From the NCBI RefSeq assembly GCF_000526375.1, contig NZ_JAFY01000002.1, positions 372,001 to 436,000 of the forward strand: 64,000 nt of DNA. Direction: 5' to 3'. The translations under genes and the position numbers were made by a program. Positions 9,646-18,071 of the stretch are shown in pieces (position 1 is the first letter of the stretch; every line of letters begins with the position of its first letter). The notes under the pieces are model-generated. The model ran no database searches, was not told the origin of the DNA, and worked only from the letters and a program-made list of their open reading frames with translations. Origin of the DNA: Aminiphilus circumscriptus DSM 16581. Lineage in GTDB: Bacteria > Synergistota > Synergistia > Synergistales > Aminiphilaceae.

Positions 9646-10236
9646 ATGCACATCGCGGAAGGAGTACTCTCTTTGCCCGTGCTCGTCACGGGAGGCGCCG
9701 TGGCTGCCCTGGGCACCGCGGTGGGGCTGCGACATCTTGACGCGGACACCATCCCCCGGGCGGGGGTCGTGTCCGCCGCCCTCTTCGCGGCGTCGCTCAT
9801 TCACGTGCGCCTCGGCGCATCGAGCCTGCATCTGGTCCTGAACGGCGTGGCGGGGCTCCTGCTGGGGAGCGCGGTCTTCCCGGCCTTTCTCGTCTCGCTC
9901 TTCCTGCAGGCCGTGCTCTTCCAGTTCGGCGGCCTGCTCGTGCTGGGGGTGAACACGGCGGTCATGGCCTGTTCGGGCTTCGCCGCGGGAATGGCGGCAC
10001 GGTTTCTCCTCCGCCGGGGAACCTCCGCCTTCGTCGCGGGCTGCATCGCCGGAGGCGGAGGACTTCTCGGCGCGGCGCTTCTCGCCGCCGCGGCACTTGC
10101 CGCGAGCGGCGAAGCCTTCGGCGCCGGCGCCCGGCTGCTTCTGGTGGCGCATCTCCCCCTCGCGGCGGTGGAGGCCGCCGTGGGAGGGGGCGTCTGTACC
10201 CTGCTGCTCCGGCGCTTTCCCGATCTGTGGCAATAG
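9646..10236 (+). CDS. nikM: NikM/CbiM substrate-binding membrane component of ECF nickel/cobalt importer
   Basis: 196 residues beginning MHIAEGVLS. The Met-His N-terminus is the conserved metal-coordinating end of the CbiM/NikM family, so the start is secure. Six or seven hydrophobic segments follow, with NTAVMACSGF as a family landmark. This short form lacks an attached CbiN/NikN part, consistent with separate NikK and NikL subunits in the same operon. It binds Ni(II) or Co(II) and passes it inward with help from NikQ and the ATPase NikO. Sequence alone does not separate nickel from cobalt; the NikK/NikL partners favour nickel. Confidence 0.9.
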   Translation: MHIAEGVLSLPVLVTGGAVAALGTAVGLRHLDADTIPRAGVVSAALFAASLIHVRLGASSLHLVLNGVAGLLLGSAVFPAFLVSLFLQAVLFQFGGLLVLGVNTAVMACSGFAAGMAARFLLRRGTSAFVAGCIAGGGGLLGAALLAAAALAASGEAFGAGARLLLVAHLPLAAVEAAVGGGVCTLLLRRFPDLWQ

Positions 10237-10257
10237 GTTCGTGAAGAAAAATCCCCC

Positions 10258-11058
10258 ATGGGAGGCTTTTCCATCGTGAACACATCCGACAACACATTCC
10301 CCGCGCTCCTGGAAATATCCCGAAAAAACCGTTCCGCGGCACGGCGGCATTTCCACACCGACATGTCGCTTGGGACCGCGCTCCTTGTTCTCGGCCTGGC
10401 CCTGCTCGGCCTCACCCTCGCGCCCCGTGCGGGCGAGGCCCACCGTCTCCTCGTCTTCGCCTACATGGAGGGCGGAACCCTCTCGGGCGAGGCCTACTTC
10501 AACGACGGCGCCCCGGTAAAGCAATGCCCCGTGTCCGTCACCGACGACGAGGGGCGGGAAACCGTCTCGGGAACCACCGACGAGGGAGGCCGCTTCGCCC
10601 TCGTTCTTCCCGAGGGGTTTCCGGCGAAGACGCTCCTCGTCTCCGTGAACGGCGGCGGCGGCCACAAGGGAACATTCCGCCTCGACATGCCCGATGCCGG
10701 CTCTCCCCCGGGAAACGTCGCCCCGGCTGCGGGAACAGCCTCCGGTACCGTCCTGGCGGAGCAAACCCCGCAGCCCTCGCCGCCCGAGGCTCCCTCCAGC
10801 GCGCTTCCCTCCCCGGAAGCACTGGAAACGTTTTTCACCGCGACGCTGGAGAAGGCTCTCGACGAAAACGCCGCCCTTCGGCGCGTGGCTCTTCTGGAGG
10901 GAAAACTCGCGACTCTCCAGGAAGAGCTTCTCGTCCTTCGCCGGGAACTCGCCGGACCACGCATACCGGAAATCCTCGGCGGAATAGGGTACATCATCGG
11001 CATCACCGGAGCCGCGCTCTGGGCGCTTTCGCGCAAAGGCGGGAGCGAAAAGAGATGA
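10258..11058 (+). CDS. nikL: NikL-type accessory component of the nickel importer
   Basis: Up to 266 residues. A hydrophobic segment (LLVLGLALLGLTLAP) precedes GEAHRLLVFAYMEGG, so the chain is exported. The middle is a carboxypeptidase-regulatory-like beta domain (GTTDEGGRFALVLPEG). A Pro/Ala-rich linker, a coiled-coil-like region (~190-225) and a C-terminal membrane helix (GGIGYIIGITGAALWAL) follow. This matches NikL of NikKMLQO systems. The start is uncertain: the ATG at 10258 has only GAAGAA upstream, and an ATG at 10363 would begin close to the signal sequence. Its stop overlaps the nikQ start by ATGA. Confidence 0.75.
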   Translation: MGGFSIVNTSDNTFPALLEISRKNRSAARRHFHTDMSLGTALLVLGLALLGLTLAPRAGEAHRLLVFAYMEGGTLSGEAYFNDGAPVKQCPVSVTDDEGRETVSGTTDEGGRFALVLPEGFPAKTLLVSVNGGGGHKGTFRLDMPDAGSPPGNVAPAAGTASGTVLAEQTPQPSPPEAPSSALPSPEALETFFTATLEKALDENAALRRVALLEGKLATLQEELLVLRRELAGPRIPEILGGIGYIIGITGAALWALSRKGGSEKR

Positions 11059-11933
11059 GCGGATACATTCCGCCTGCAAAAAGCCCGCACCCGGAATGCC
11101 GGAAAGCGGAAGGAGCCGCCGGACGCGCACGGCGCGATCCGGGCGACTTCCGCTCCTTGTCGACCTTTGGATGGGCCGATACCGAAGGGGTTTGCTGCGC
11201 CTCCCTTGCCCCGAAGCGGGGAGGCAAAACGGACAGCACCGACAACGTGCCGCTTCTGGAAAAGCTGCCCCCCGCCTCCCGGGTGCTTCTTGCGGTGTGT
11301 TTCGCCTGCGCGACCACTCTGGCTACGTCCCTTTCCGCCCAGGCGCTCCTTCTGGTCTACGGAGGCGCGCTGCTCCTCCTCTCCGGAGTCTCTCCGGGCC
11401 ATGCAGCGCAGCGTCTCCTGCCCCTGTGGGGCATGCTTCTCCTCCTCTGGGTGACCCTTCCCTTCGGTGCGCCCTCCCTCCGGGAAGGGGTCGTTTTCGC
11501 CCTTGCGGTGACGCTCAAGGCGACGGGGGCGCTCCTGGCCTTTCTCGCGCTACTGGGAACGCTGCCGCCGGAAGAGCTGTTCCGCACTCTGGGCCGTTTC
11601 GGCGTGCCCCCCAAGCTGCTCCTGCTCTTCCACTTCACCCACCGTTACGCCTTCGTCTTCCGGGACGAGGCAGAGCGTGTCCTCAAGGCCATGCGCCTTC
11701 GCGGCTTTGCCGCGGGCCTGTCGCGGGAGAGCCTTCGCGGATGGGGATACCTGGTGGGGAGCATTCTGGGGCGAAGCCTGGACCGGGCGGAGCGTGTCGC
11801 GGCGGCCATGCGCCTTCGTGGTTTTACGGGAACGCTGCCGGCCATCGAGGAACCGCTTCCCCGGGGCAAGCGCCTCTGGACCGCCGGAGCGGTGGCCGCA
11901 CCGCTTTTGTGCATCCTTCTCCTGGCGCAATGA
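11055..11933 (+). CDS. nikQ: NikQ/CbiQ transmembrane (T) component of ECF importer
   Basis: 292 residues; the ATG overlaps the nikL stop. The first ~75 residues are polar and atypical. Then come about five membrane helices and the coupling region with two Ala-Met-Arg-Leu-Arg-Gly signatures (KAMRLRGFAAG and AAMRLRGFTG), which dock onto the ATPase. The HRYAFVFRDEAERV block between helices is also typical. The long polar N-terminal extension could be real or could mean translation begins further in, for instance near the LLEKLPPASR segment. Confidence 0.88.
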   Translation: MSGYIPPAKSPHPECRKAEGAAGRARRDPGDFRSLSTFGWADTEGVCCASLAPKRGGKTDSTDNVPLLEKLPPASRVLLAVCFACATTLATSLSAQALLLVYGGALLLLSGVSPGHAAQRLLPLWGMLLLLWVTLPFGAPSLREGVVFALAVTLKATGALLAFLALLGTLPPEELFRTLGRFGVPPKLLLLFHFTHRYAFVFRDEAERVLKAMRLRGFAAGLSRESLRGWGYLVGSILGRSLDRAERVAAAMRLRGFTGTLPAIEEPLPRGKRLWTAGAVAAPLLCILLLAQ

Positions 11934-12685
11934 CCGCTTCTCGTACAGGCTCCGTCTCCTCAGGGCCGCCGCTCCTCGAGGCACGCACGCTCTCCTTCGC
12001 CTATCCCCGCCAGAGGGAGATCCTCCGGAACGTCTCCCTCACCCTGCGTGCAGGAGAACGGCGATGTCTCCGAGGGAGCAACGGCTCTGGCAAGACCACG
12101 CTTCTGCATCTTTTGGTGGGACTGCTCCGCCCGATGGAAGGGGAGATCCTCTTCGACGGAGCGCCCGTGACGGACAGACAGAACCTCGCCCGTCTCCGCG
12201 CCTCCGTGGGGCTGCTCTTCCAGGATCCGGACGACATGCTCTTCTGCCCGTCCCTTCTGGAGGACGTGGCCTTCGGCCCGCTCAACCTCGGCGTTTCCAG
12301 GGAAGAAGCCCGCAGGAGATCCCTCGAGGTTCTGGAACGGCTCGGCCTGACGCATCTCGCCTCCCGCCCTCCCTACGCGCTTTCGGGGGGGGAGAAACGC
12401 CTCGGCGCCCTGGCGGCGCTCCTCTCCATGGAGCCGAAGATCCTCCTCCTGGACGAACCAACCGGAGGCTTGGATGAAAGGGCCTGGAACGTGCTTGTGG
12501 AAGAGCTTTCCCGAAATTCCGCGGCGCTGCTCGTGGCCTCCCACGACGAGGCATTCCTCACCGCCGTCGCCCCCGAGGGGTTTCTGCTCCGGGAGGGAAC
12601 GCTCGCCTCATTTCCTCCTGAAGAGAGTCTCCGGGAGCATCACCCCGCCACGACGCAGCAGCGCCCCCGCCGCTTCGCTTCGTAG
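11930..12685 (+). CDS. nikO: NikO/CbiO ATP-binding component of ECF importer
   Basis: 251 residues, starting at an ATGA overlap with nikQ. It is a complete ABC ATPase: Walker A GSNGSGKTT, Q-loop LLFQDPDDMLF (the ECF-type QDPDD), signature ALSGGEKRLG, Walker B ILLLDEPTG, and switch His in VASHDE. The last 15 codons overlap, on the opposite strand, the tail of a decayed GGDEF gene, so the C-terminus is probably not conserved. It energises nickel uptake with NikM and NikQ. Confidence 0.92.
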   Translation: MTASRTGSVSSGPPLLEARTLSFAYPRQREILRNVSLTLRAGERRCLRGSNGSGKTTLLHLLVGLLRPMEGEILFDGAPVTDRQNLARLRASVGLLFQDPDDMLFCPSLLEDVAFGPLNLGVSREEARRRSLEVLERLGLTHLASRPPYALSGGEKRLGALAALLSMEPKILLLDEPTGGLDERAWNVLVEELSRNSAALLVASHDEAFLTAVAPEGFLLREGTLASFPPEESLREHHPATTQQRPRRFAS

Positions 12686-13160
12686 AGACGGCGGTCCGCC
12701 AGGGCAATCAGGAGATCTTTCGAGAGCGCACCGCGAAGGCTCTCTTCCTCGACGGAGGACGGAGGCAATCCCGACTCTGAAGGACACACTGAGGGATTCG
12801 TTTCCCCGCGGAAAAGGAATGTGGCGCGTGCGGGCCAGCAGACCAACGTACGATATACGGAAGCCCGAAGTCCTCTTCCGGGAAAAAACAGAGGAAGCCC
12901 TGAATAAAGACCTTTCGCTTTCCCTTGACTCGGGTCGCATCAGGCTCTGCGAAGCGCCCTGCGGGGCTGACGCAGCCTTATTCAGAGATTTCCAGAATGA
13001 ATGCTTCGCCCCCGAAACGCCCCACCACATCCTCCGGCCCCAGATGCACCTCGAACAGCTCCACGAGCCCCCGAAGCACCGCGTCACCGGCGGGATGTCC
13101 GTAGGTTTCGTTAATCTTCTTAAAATGCTCCAGATCAAGAAAGGTCATGGGGCAAAACAA
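12640..13160 (-). pseudogene. decayed GGDEF-domain gene interrupted by a 100-bp repeat element
   Basis: The 5' part reads TFLDLEHFKKINETYGHPAG and continues to VVGRFGGEAFILEI, a clear GGDEF half-domain. It ends in a stop supplied by the inserted element (12893-12992). Beyond the element the GGDEF reading resumes in pieces: an LFPEEDFGL-like stretch, then SLSVSFRVGIASV in another frame, then IALADRRLYEAKRRGR in a third. These are the missing second half of the domain with at least two further frameshifts. No N-terminal sensor remains. The tail overlaps the 3' end of nikO on the opposite strand. It is non-functional on this reading. Confidence 0.75.
12893..12992 (+). repeat. 100-bp MITE-like element, copy 1 (inverse orientation)
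   Basis: One of six 100-bp copies in the window. The target duplication is CAGA on both sides (12889-12892 and 12993-12996). It has four substitutions from the consensus, two of which it shares with copy 4. It sits inside the GGDEF remnant and supplies its premature stop. Confidence 0.9.
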
Positions 13161-13235
13161 AAGAGCGCCCCTTCTTTCCTTACATGGGATATCCTCCGGA
13201 GAGCATGCTCCGTGAGTCTTTACGATACCGAAAAC

Positions 13236-13245
13236 TACCGATGTA
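13236..13245 (+). promoter_or_regulatory. cop-box-like palindrome upstream of copA
   Basis: TACCGATGTA matches the CopY-type operator pattern TACANNTGTA at all but one position. It lies about 115 bp before the copA start in an unusually AT-rich stretch (13200-13320) that also contains CTATATATTT, a possible -10 region. No CopY-like gene is in the window, so this is only a suggestion. Confidence 0.25.
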
Positions 13246-13360
13246 GGGTATCTGCTCTCTCTGATAGACTCTACGCTATATATTTCCTACTATTCTGGTA
13301 GAATTAGTCTATCTCTCTTCACGACAACGCTGCAAAAGCCATAACCAAGGAGGAATTTCC

Positions 13361-15856
13361 GTGACGGAGACGACGAAGAAGGTCACCCTCGACGTGGGAG
13401 GCATGCACTGCACCGCCTGCGCCGCTTCGGTGGAAAGGGCCTTGCGGAAACTCGACGGTGTGCGGGAGGCATCGGTGAACTTTCCCCTGCATCTCGCCGT
13501 TGTCGAGGCCGATGCGGGCCTCGATCCGACCCTGTTCGTCACAGCGGTGGAAAAACTCGGCTTTACCGCACTGGTGAAGGAGAATCCCCTCTCCGGAGGT
13601 GCACGGCGCCTGAGCTTTTCCGTGGAGGGGATGCACTGCGCCGCCTGCGCACGCACGCTGGAGCGGGAGCTGACCAAGGTGACGGGGGTCCGCGCCGCAT
13701 CGGTGAACTTTCCCCAGAAGCGGGCCTTCGTGGAAGCCGACCCGGAAGGGATCTCCGCCGGGGCGCTCGAAGAGGCGGCGGGCAAGGTCGGCTTTGCGCT
13801 GAAACCCCTGGCGAAATCCACCGAGGCGGAGGATCTGGCGGGCAAGGAACTCGCCGAGGCGAAACGTCGCATGATCTTTGCCTGGAGCCTGGGCATTCCC
13901 TCGGCGATCCTCATGATCCTCCACGAGATGGGGATCAAGATTCCGCCGGACCTCACCCAGCATCTCCTGCTGGAGCAGCTCCTGAGCGGAGCCATCATCT
14001 TCTGGGCGGGCTGGGACACCATCTCCCGGGCGTTCAAGCAGATCCTTCGCCTGCAGACGAGCATGGACACTCTCATCACCCTCGGCACGCTGGCTTCCTT
14101 CGCGTCGGGACTCCTGAAGATCGCCGGGCTGCCCGTGGTGAGCTACGCCATGGTGGGTGGCATGATCATGGCCTTCCACCTCACCGGGCGTTACCTGGAG
14201 ACGGGAGCGCGCACCCGGGCGACGAAGGAGATCGCCAAACTGCTCGAGATGGGCGCCAAACGCGCCACGGTGGAGCGGAACGGTTCCGTCGTCGAGGTGG
14301 ACGTGGAGGAACTCGTCCCCGGCGACGTGATGCGCGTCCGCCCCGGAGAGAAGATCCCCCAGGACGGCGAGATCGTGGAGGGAACGAGCAGCATCGACGA
14401 GTCCATGATCTCCGGCGAGCCGCTGCCGGTGGTCCGCAAGGCCGGAGAGGCCGTCACGGGGGCGACCATCAATCTCGACGGCTTCTTGCGCATCCGGGTC
14501 ACCCGCATCGGCGCGGAGTCCTTCCTCTCCCAGATCATCTCCCTCGTCCAGGAGGCCCAGGGGACGAAGGTGCCCATCCAGGCCTTCGCGGACCGCATCA
14601 CCTCGGTGTTCGTGCCCGTCGTCACCGTTCTGTCGGCGCTCTCCTTCGCACTGCTCTTCTTCTTCCCCAACGTGTTCGCACCCTTCATCGCCGCGGCCTC
14701 CCGGCTTCTTCCCTGGATTCCGCCGGACATGCCCGTCTTCTCCAGGGCACTCTCGGCGGCCATCGCCACGCTGGTCATCGCCTGCCCCTGCGCGCTCGGG
14801 CTCGCCACACCCACGGCGCTCATGGTGGGCACGGGCATGTCCGCCAAACGGGGCGTTCTCTTCCGGAACGGCGAAGCCGTGCAGACCATGAAGGCCGTGG
14901 ACGTGGTGCTCCTTGACAAGACCGGAACGGTCACCCTCGGGCGCCCCAAGGTCGAGCGCATTGCTCCTGCCCCGGGAATGACCGAGGCGGATCTCCTCCG
15001 TCTCGCCCTGGCGCTGGAGACTCCCTCGGAGCATCCCCTGAGCCGGGCCATCGTGGAACACGCCGCAACGGCGGGCATGACCGCCGAGCCGGTGGAGCGC
15101 TTTCAGGTGACACCCGGGCGAGGCGTGAGCGGCGTGGTGGACGGAAGGACGGTCTACGCGGGAAATCTCGCGTGGCTCTCCGAGACGAACTCCGACGCGT
15201 CCCCCGGAAAAAGCATTCTTTCCGACGAACTCACCCGGGTACTCGAAGAGGGCACCGCCGCCGCCGCCACACCGGTGTTGCTCTGGGACGAGGAGCGCGT
15301 GCTCGGCCTCTTCCTTCTCGCCGACGAGATCAAGCCCGAGAGCGTCGCCTCGGTGGAGCGCCTTCGGCACATGGGCAAGAAAGTGGTGCTCGTCACCGGA
15401 GACGTGCGGCGCTCCGCGGAACGCATCGGCGCCATGCTCGGCATGGACGAGATCGTGGCGGAAGTTCTCCCCCAGGACAAGATGAGCGTGGTGGAACGCT
15501 TCCAGGCCGCGGGACACACCGTGGCCATGGTGGGAGACGGCATCAACGACGCCCCGGCCCTCAAGAAGGCGAACGTCGGAATCGCCATGGGCACGGGAAC
15601 GGACATCGCCCGGGAGGCCGGGGACGTGGTGCTCGTCCGGGGCAATCTGGAATCCCTCGTGGAGGCCTTCCTCATCGCCGACGCCATGTTCCGGAAGATC
15701 CGGCAGAACCTCTTCTGGGCCTTCTTCTACAACGTGGTGGCCATCCCCCTGGCCTTCGTGGGACTTCTCCATCCCCTTCTCGCCGAGGCAGCCATGGCAC
15801 TGAGTTCCATCAACGTGGTGACCAACTCTCTGCGCCTCCGCAAGCTCCGGCTCTGA
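13361..15856 (+). CDS. copA: copper-translocating P1B-type ATPase
   Basis: 831 residues from GTG with AAGGAGG upstream. Two N-terminal HMA domains carry [12 protein letters not shown] and [12 protein letters not shown] metal sites. The P-type core is complete: SGEPLPV actuator loop, CPC in [24 protein letters not shown] phosphorylation site, SEHPLSRAI nucleotide-site HP, and [10 protein letters not shown] hinge. Eight membrane segments are expected. The CPC and C-terminal membrane motifs fit Cu(I) export (CopA). It is followed after 270 bp by a copper-handling fusion protein, supporting a copper-resistance unit. Confidence 0.95.
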
Positions 15857-16127
15857 TTCCGGACCGTGGACCGGGGGCGGAAAAACTCGGCGCGGCGCTG
15901 AAAAAACGCGTTGCGCTTCCCGGCGGGGAACGTAGAGACAAAACGCGTCAGACAGGGAATGCATGGTGACATGTGAGCAAGGCACGGAAAAAGAATGCGT
16001 CATGACCGCCGAGGATTTCTTTCCTTGATGGATGGCGAAATCCGATGGTCGATGCTGTTCGGGAGAAATCGCGGGCTTCCTTGGGGTAGCAAGAGGAGCC
16101 TGCGTTTGAGGAGGGATGGAGACGATC

Positions 16128-17960
16128 ATGGCAGGAAAAGACGAAAAACGAACAGAATCGAAAAGCCCGGAAGAGGCGACGCCTCCGAAGAAGGGCTCGG
16201 CAAGGGCACAAGAAACCCCGGATGCCGCAACGGAGGCGAAAACTCCAGCGCCTGCGCCGCGGAAGAACGAGCCGGAGCCCCAGGTGCGTCTCTTCGTCCG
16301 GGGCATGCACTGCCCCGCCTGCGAAGCCCTCGTGGCGGAACGGATCGGTGAACTGCCCGGTGTGCGGCATGTGCGCGCCTCCCTGGCGGAGGGAACGGTG
16401 ACGGTCACCCTCGCGAAGCCGGAGCACTCGGCGGCTTCCGGAACGCACGAAAACGGCGGGGCGGCGCCGCAGGATCCGCCGGAAACGAGAGCATCGCAGG
16501 CCCTCTCCCCGGAGAAACTCGGGGAACTCTTCGCCGACCAGGGGTATCTCTTCGCCGAAACCCCCTTTGACGACGCGGGGGGACGTCTCCGGGAGTTCGC
16601 CCTCGCCGGAGGTGCGGTCCTCCTCGCGGCGGCGTTCTTTCTTTTTCTGGAGCACAGCGGCATCCTTCATCTCGTCCTCGTGGACACGTCGTCGGCGCTT
16701 CCCGCCTTCGTCCTCTTCGGCCTGCTCGCGGGCATTTCGAGCTGTGCCGCTCTCGTGGGAGGGCTGGTGCTCTCCGTCTCCCGCTCCTGGGGGACCGACG
16801 GAAACGGGAAATCGTGTCTGTCCTTCAACCTCGGCCGCCTCGTCGCCTACGGCGCGGCGGGGGCACTTCTCGGATCGCTGGGAAGTGCCTTCCGGATCTC
16901 CGCTCCCGCCGCGGCGCTTCTGGTCTTCGCCGTCTCCTTCGTCATGGCGGCTCTGGGGCTCCAGATGCTCGGCGTTCCCGGCGCGGAGCGACTCCGCCTC
17001 CCCTTTTCGGGAGAGGGAACGTCCCGAAAGGGAAAGGGCACCCGGACACCCTTTCTCCTCGGCGCCTCCACGGTGTTCCTTCCCTGCGGCTTCTCCATCA
17101 CCGTCCAGGGCGTGGCGCTTTTGTCGGGCGACCCGTTCCGGGGAGCCCTGGTCATGCTCGCCTTCGCCCTCGGAACAGCGCCCTCCCTGCTGGCCATCGG
17201 CATCGCCGGAACACGCTTTCTGTCGCATCCGCGCTTCTCCCGACTCGCGGGGCGCATCGCGGGAGCGCTCGTCCTCATGGCGGCGCTCTACAACGTGAAC
17301 GCCCAGCTCAATGTCCTGAGCATGCCCTCCTTAAGCGATCTGCCCTTCTTCCGCACCGCACCGGAGCAGGCCTCCGCCGTGCCCCTCGCTCCGGAGGCTC
17401 CGGCGACATCCCAGGCAACTCCCGCATCGCGTTTCCCGAACGACGCGGGCATCACGGGAAGTACCTGCTGCACCGTGGAGCCCGAAGCTCCTGCGCCATC
17501 TCCCCCGAGCGGACGCTTTCCGAGCGATGCGGGGTTCGGCGGCGCCTGCTGTTCCGTCGCGGAACCCGGCGCAGCCTCCCAGGACAGTTCATGCTGCACC
17601 GCCGGTGCGGCGCCGGACGGAAGCCCCATCACCGGTCAGCCCGCACCGACGGGTGCGCCACTTCGTTCCGAGACGCCACCACCCCAGGCGGCACAGCGCA
17701 TCATCATGGCCGCCGGAGCCCGGAGTTACACGCCGAACGTCTTCCAGGTGAAGGCGGGCGTCCCCGTGCGCTGGGAGATCACGGACGGAGGATTCAGCGG
17801 CTGCACCAACGCCGTCATGGCCAGGGGGCTCTTCAACGGAACGCTCCCCCTCGTCCGGGGAGGCACGGCGGTGGCGGAGTTCACCCCGGAAAAGCCGGGG
17901 CGCTACAAGTTCAGTTGTTGGATGGGCATGGTCTCGGGAATCATCGAGGTTCTTCCATAA
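16128..17960 (+). CDS. HMA / DsbD-like membrane / cupredoxin fusion protein with CC-repeat linker
   Basis: About 610 residues. A charged N-terminal tail leads to an HMA domain (RGMHCPACEALVAERIGELP, ~65-105). A six-helix membrane domain of the TauE/SafE or DsbD_2 type follows (~155-400, with NLGRLVAYGAAGALLG and FLPCGFSITVQG). A Pro/Ala-rich linker then carries three CC pairs in near-repeats (STCC, GACC, SSCC, with RFPNDAG / RFPSDAG spacers). A C-terminal cupredoxin-like domain with SGCTNAVM and FSCWMGMVSG closes the chain. It probably takes up, relays or exports copper across the membrane. GGAG 6 nt before this ATG supports the start; another lies 4 codons upstream. Confidence 0.85.
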   Translation: MAGKDEKRTESKSPEEATPPKKGSARAQETPDAATEAKTPAPAPRKNEPEPQVRLFVRGMHCPACEALVAERIGELPGVRHVRASLAEGTVTVTLAKPEHSAASGTHENGGAAPQDPPETRASQALSPEKLGELFADQGYLFAETPFDDAGGRLREFALAGGAVLLAAAFFLFLEHSGILHLVLVDTSSALPAFVLFGLLAGISSCAALVGGLVLSVSRSWGTDGNGKSCLSFNLGRLVAYGAAGALLGSLGSAFRISAPAAALLVFAVSFVMAALGLQMLGVPGAERLRLPFSGEGTSRKGKGTRTPFLLGASTVFLPCGFSITVQGVALLSGDPFRGALVMLAFALGTAPSLLAIGIAGTRFLSHPRFSRLAGRIAGALVLMAALYNVNAQLNVLSMPSLSDLPFFRTAPEQASAVPLAPEAPATSQATPASRFPNDAGITGSTCCTVEPEAPAPSPPSGRFPSDAGFGGACCSVAEPGAASQDSSCCTAGAAPDGSPITGQPAPTGAPLRSETPPPQAAQRIIMAAGARSYTPNVFQVKAGVPVRWEITDGGFSGCTNAVMARGLFNGTLPLVRGGTAVAEFTPEKPGRYKFSCWMGMVSGIIEVLP

Positions 17961-17971
17961 AAAAAAGGAAA

Positions 17972-18071
17972 GGAATCTCTGAATAAGGCTGCGTCAACCC
18001 CGCAGGGTGCCTCGCAGAGCCTGATGCGACCCGAGTCAAGGGAAAGCGAAAGGCCTTTATTCAGAGCTTCC
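17972..18071 (+). repeat. 100-bp MITE-like element, copy 2
   Basis: Exactly 100 bp, flanked by GAAA at 17968-17971 and 18072-18075. It starts GGAATCTCTGAATAA and ends with the near-complement. It has two substitutions from the consensus. It lies 11 bp after the stop of the HMA fusion gene. Confidence 0.9.

Follow-up and report, generated by a model that had tools for sequence, protein, structure and literature searches.

A three-CC linker in a membrane protein encoded beside copA is best read as a lineage-specific gain within an HMA-DsbD_2-cupredoxin family

The gene that follows copA in the window (the whole 64,000-nucleotide stretch of DNA that we analysed) encodes a membrane protein with HMA, DsbD_2 and cupredoxin domains, in this order, and, in front of the cupredoxin, a disordered linker that holds three CC pairs. 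By comparison with related sequences, the CC array is best read as a lineage-specific gain and not as a conserved relay of the family. We hold with middling confidence that the protein is an accessory Cu(I)-handling component of the CopA module, and that its CC arm would act as a Cu(I) buffer or landing site near the cupredoxin instead of an indispensable ordered relay; metal binding is what we infer here. The features discussed are collected in Table 1.

Table 1. Features of the copA locus and of the fusion protein. Residue numbers refer to the translation.
Feature	Position	Strand	Basis
Two inverted repeats before copA: GATACC-N17-GGTATC (13224-13252) and GATAGACT-N35-AGTCTATC (13263-13313)	13224..13313	+	
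copA, P1B Cu(I)-ATPase with two HMA domains, same-strand upstream neighbour	13361..15856	+	TIGR01525/TIGR01511; CPC motif in translation
HMA-DsbD_2-cupredoxin membrane protein gene	16128..17960 (start 16128 or 16116)	+	ORF calls, Pfam, AlphaFold model
HMA (Atx1-like) domain, CxxC at residues 66 and 69, predicted cytoplasmic	16281..16556	+	PF00403; model residues 56-147
Seven-helix membrane part (residues 154-400): one helix plus six-helix DsbD_2, C210 and C324	16575..17315	+	PF13386; modelled helices; positive-inside charges
Disordered Pro/Ala-rich linker (residues 418-520), three CC pairs, degenerate 28-aa repeat RFP[NS]DAG...CC	17367..17675	+	
CC pair 1, STCC, residues 451-452	17466..17471	+	
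CC pair 2, GACC, residues 478-479	17547..17552	+	
CC pair 3, SSCC, residues 493-494	17592..17597	+	
CupA-like cupredoxin (residues 526-614), C563, C601, M603, M605, predicted extracytoplasmic	17691..17957	+	Pfam, sequence, fold

Results

Domain architecture and membrane topology

The open reading frame at 16116-17960 on the plus strand encodes 614 aa, with an in-frame methionine (Met5) corresponding to a start at 16128. A GGAG lies 6 nt upstream of Met5, and this better placement makes 16128, the start given in the original prediction, the plausible one. Pfam searches matched HMA over residues 59-101 (E 4.9e-10), DsbD_2 over residues 198-391 (E 1e-28) and Cupredoxin_1 over residues 526-607 (E 7.7e-05, below the curated cut-off). 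The protein had been described as a fusion of HMA, DsbD/TauE-like membrane and cupredoxin domains; the three domains stand, the membrane part matching DsbD_2, and the Pfam search of the window protein gave no TauE family match. Regarding the cupredoxin, its identity was confirmed by both sequence and fold: Streptococcus pneumoniae CupA matched it with an E value of 2.7e-05, the cupredoxin domain of pneumococcal CopA was matched too, and the best Foldseek match was again CupA (4f2e, TM-score of 0.81 on the target). In the AlphaFold model (pTM 0.70), seven helices span the membrane, and the HMA and cupredoxin domains are both predicted with confidence.

Given the seven helices and the positive charges found on loops 2-3, 4-5 and 6-7, in the window protein as well as in the family mean, the HMA domain is predicted to be cytosolic and the linker and cupredoxin extracytoplasmic. 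The charge rule therefore supports an outer location of the linker. In the alignment of 97 rows, the HMA CxxC (C66/C69) was present in nearly all homologues, while C210 and C324, located in helices 1 and 4 of the DsbD_2 unit, were found in 96 of the 96 rows filled at those positions. C563, C601, M603 and M605 of the cupredoxin (C...CxMxM) were invariant. These four residues align with C74, C111, M113 and M115 of CupA, whose Cu(I) sites are C74/C111 and C74/M113/M115 (PMC5646241).

The CC linker

The linker, of approximately 100 residues, showed pLDDT values below 50 over its whole extent (418-520) in the model, as expected from the flexible chain originally proposed. It had also been called acid- and Pro-rich: the aligned residues 404-530 (127 aa) contain 18% Pro, 18% Ala, 4.7% Cys, R 5 and 8.7% D+E (11/127), so that Pro-rich is accurate and acid-rich is not. 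The motif RFP[NS]DAG occurs twice (residues 439 and 467), and the first two CC pairs sit in a degenerate 28-residue repeat. The third has no such motif before it, and the spacing between pairs is uneven (27 and 15 residues), which leaves the description of CC motifs in repeated units with RFP[NS]DAG spacers valid for two of the three pairs.

Three CC pairs arose in composition shuffles of the linker at a frequency of 8.5e-5, and only 13 of 5000 CC-preserving shuffles aligned as well as the two repeat units. Hence, by shuffles, the CC array and its repeat are more than chance. Besides, in 464 kb of the genome (313 putative proteins from heuristic gene calls) the window protein was alone in having three CC within 60 aa, and no CC pair was found in other low-complexity stretches of the same sample. 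One could argue that duplication simply made a Pro/Ala-rich linker longer in a genome rich in GC, leaving Cys pairs without function; the linker is unique to one genome, its repeat is degenerate and linker lengths vary. However, the improbability of three pairs for this composition, their absence from the other low-complexity stretches sampled and the recurrence of Cys-rich arms among relatives (see below) make such neutral growth rather unlikely.

Linker comparison across the family

A genome scan identified 75 loci, mostly from Patescibacteria, and a search of the phylum matched the linker-cupredoxin part in 42 of 188 genomes, while a plasmid collection gave only three matches, all of them partial. 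Besides these, a 102-aa ORF (G023:C6:63344-63634; L005, L013) combines the last portion of the membrane part with a truncated cupredoxin and may be what is left of a decayed fusion gene copy. The HMA-DsbD_2-cupredoxin family is widespread and apparently uncharacterised, with no description of the architecture found in the non-subscription literature searched.

We compared 97 sequences, namely the window protein and 96 homologues from Patescibacteria and other Synergistota. The homologue linkers measured 25 to 59 residues and contained 0 or 1 Cys, at least two linker Cys being found in the window protein only; in the 73 full-length sequences, all linkers except that of the window protein had 0 Cys and 26 to 59 residues. 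None of the 96 homologues, the two nearest relatives included, presented a linker Cys pair. These nearest relatives, L016/G032 (60% core identity) and G002, have no Cys-rich tail either, and the window protein grouped with them with an SH-aLRT of 99, next to two more tail-less proteins, in a quick tree with a long G002 branch. The contig of the sole same-genus genome, from a sister species, ends inside copA. It is the lack of linker Cys pairs in relatives, together with this placement, that points to a gain in the window's lineage.

According to these results, the core of the family manages with short linkers that hold no Cys pair. This bears directly on the proposal that Cu(I) leaves the membrane part and reaches the cupredoxin by moving in order over the three CC pairs. 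The linker does lie between the two, is flexible and repeats its CC units; yet 96 proteins with the same domains have no Cys pair there and a linker of 25 to 59 residues is enough for them, the CC spacing is uneven and the third unit has no spacer motif, so we consider an ordered relay unlikely. As a mechanism of the family, the chain of Cu(I) sites originally predicted is not supported, since homologues with the same domains do not conserve linker cysteines. A weaker version, a Cu(I)-binding arm, is plausible by analogy with the Cys-rich tails of relatives.

Cys-rich tails and other arms in relatives

A Cys-rich tail follows the cupredoxin in 60 of the 97 sequences: 39 tails have no CC pair and are mostly of the SGAKGCGCGGG type, and 21 carry CC or CxCC. 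The only tail modelled, that of L018, was disordered (pLDDT below 50 over residues 483-524). The window protein stops with the cupredoxin and has no such tail. When tail labels were placed on the tree they required 26 parsimony changes, fewer than in each of 200 shuffles, so the tails are inherited and yet have been gained or lost many times. With 60 of 97 sequences bearing them, a thiol-rich arm beside the cupredoxin is recurrent, and what is new in the window protein is the position before the domain and the CC array. Its place in a tail-less clade suggests that the arm was gained independently of the tails.

We also considered homology between linker and tails (PSGAKGCGCGGG against FPSDAGFGGACC of Patescibacterial tails) and rejected it, since the linker's score against a profile built from 36 tails did not exceed that of shuffled sequences. 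Any shared role is hence one of analogy, and the likeness would be one of design.

Other Cys-rich stretches were seen along the way. Many of the Synergistota proteins L094-L118 end in GAAEAAE followed by CxCC at the very C-terminus. L036, L069 and L015 have two cupredoxins per chain; in L036/L069 a Cys-rich stretch of the CGGGGGGCGCGGG type lies between them, and the site of the second cupredoxin is changed (CGMEMM/CGMGMI). In the window's genome, a GntR/FCD-type regulator (L124:14805-15959, minus strand) has the predicted start region MAKPACCVKSGTFCCDG, which could reflect either a misassigned start or an N-terminal extension rich in Cys.

Neighbourhood of copA and copper context

The fusion gene starts 260-270 bp after copA on the same strand, in line with the original prediction. 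The same order, with copA directly before the fusion, is found in G002, a genome of the same taxonomic family as the window's. A P1B ATPase is nearby in 19 of the 20 Synergistota loci examined, and among the family loci with 2 kb of downstream sequence, 57 of 66 have one downstream on the same strand. No promoter was detected between copA and the fusion gene by a simple scan, of a kind that is uninformative in a GC-rich genome. Neither of the inverted repeats before copA is expected by chance, each occurs once in the window, and both are candidate operators for a copper regulator; the sole CsoR-like gene found in the genome is on another contig (C7:975915).

A 98-bp repeat brackets the two genes (12893-12990 on the minus strand and 17974-18071 on the plus strand, 95% complementary), and we asked whether it bounds a mobile cassette. 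It does not define one, because it is dispersed in at least 43 copies in the genome, with 86-100% identity and some of them in tandem (contig C1, about 109.4-109.7 kb); it would be of MITE or REP type. The ORFs at 9646-12685, immediately before the copper genes, have, by eye, the look of a nickel/cobalt ECF transporter (CbiM-, CbiQ- and CbiO-like). Finally, copper supply to a respiratory heme-copper oxidase is unlikely, as no COX1 was found in the window's genome; a role in detoxifying copper or in handling Cu(I) on the outer side is a better fit than one in assembling the oxidase.

Discussion

Our preferred reading is that of an accessory protein of the CopA module. The cytosolic HMA would take Cu(I); Cu(I), or else reducing equivalents, would be handed on by the membrane cysteines, and the C/C and C/M/M sites of the outer cupredoxin would bind Cu(I). 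As a lineage-specific thiol arm, the CC linker may buffer or collect Cu(I) close to the cupredoxin, coming from CopA or from the protein itself, and so raise capacity or local capture; it would play, from the other side of the cupredoxin, the probable role of the relatives' Cys-rich tails. Counting against this explanation, the CC pairs could be oxidised in the periplasm unless kept reduced. The CC linker occurs in one genome only among the 97 sequences compared.

The CcdA redox pair lies in the equivalents of the first and fourth helix, the same positions as the invariant membrane cysteines of the DsbD_2 part. The two Cys of CupA help to reduce Cu(II) (PMC5646241). A CcdA/DsbD-like flow of electrons via C210/C324, serving to maintain the CupA-like site and the CC pairs in the reduced state or to reduce Cu(II), is nonetheless unlikely, given that an HMA replaces the cytosolic thioredoxin and a cupredoxin the outer one, which speaks for metal and not electrons, and that homologue linkers have no outer dithiol.

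Going beyond the accessory role, the family might form a class of membrane Cu(I) conduits, with HMA inside, a CcdA-like Cys pair and a CupA-like cupredoxin outside, that repeatedly gains disordered thiol arms beside the cupredoxin, the three-CC arm of the window protein being a true Cu(I) relay or buffer; we regard this broader reading as doubtful. If the arm binds Cu(I), the family would show a P-type copper pump coupled to an outer cupredoxin via flexible thiol arms on one side of the domain or the other, and this coupling would extend to bacteria including the reduced-genome Patescibacteria. The set of linker-CC, tail-CC, tail-CGCG and arm-less proteins offers a comparison of what disordered Cys arms add to metal transfer. 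Besides, the membrane part carries a sulfite exporter annotation, yet the family has the look of copper proteins.

Regarding known systems, CupA of S. pneumoniae (4f2e, 2mry) and the cupredoxin domain of CopA (4f2f) share the cupredoxin fold and the two Cys and two Met that make up the two Cu(I) sites, and CupA is likewise membrane-anchored and encoded with a Cu(I) ATPase. However, CupA is a cytoplasm-facing chaperone with a single N-terminal helix and no CC linker, whereas the window cupredoxin ends a seven-helix protein with an HMA and is predicted to lie outside; given these helices and the charge rule, the match is to a CupA-like domain only. The DsbD_2/CcdA-type proteins (PF13386), annotated as 'sulfite exporter TauE/SafE family', have the same six-helix unit with one conserved Cys per half, to which the window protein adds a helix and an HMA in front and a cupredoxin behind. 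The Patescibacterial and other Synergistota proteins (L015-L089, L094-L118) resemble it in domains, invariant residues and neighbouring P1B ATPase, and differ in their linkers of 25-59 aa without Cys pairs and in the tail carried by 60 of the 97. PacL1 of Mycobacterium tuberculosis also partners a P-ATPase in the membrane and combines a disordered segment with a motif that binds metal (PMC9374683), but it is unrelated, has one helix, handles zinc and bears its motif at the cytoplasmic C-terminus. Bacterial metallothioneins such as MymT likewise have a stretch rich in Cys, where several Cu(I) would be expected to bind; they are free small proteins, whereas the window protein holds its six Cys in a tethered linker.
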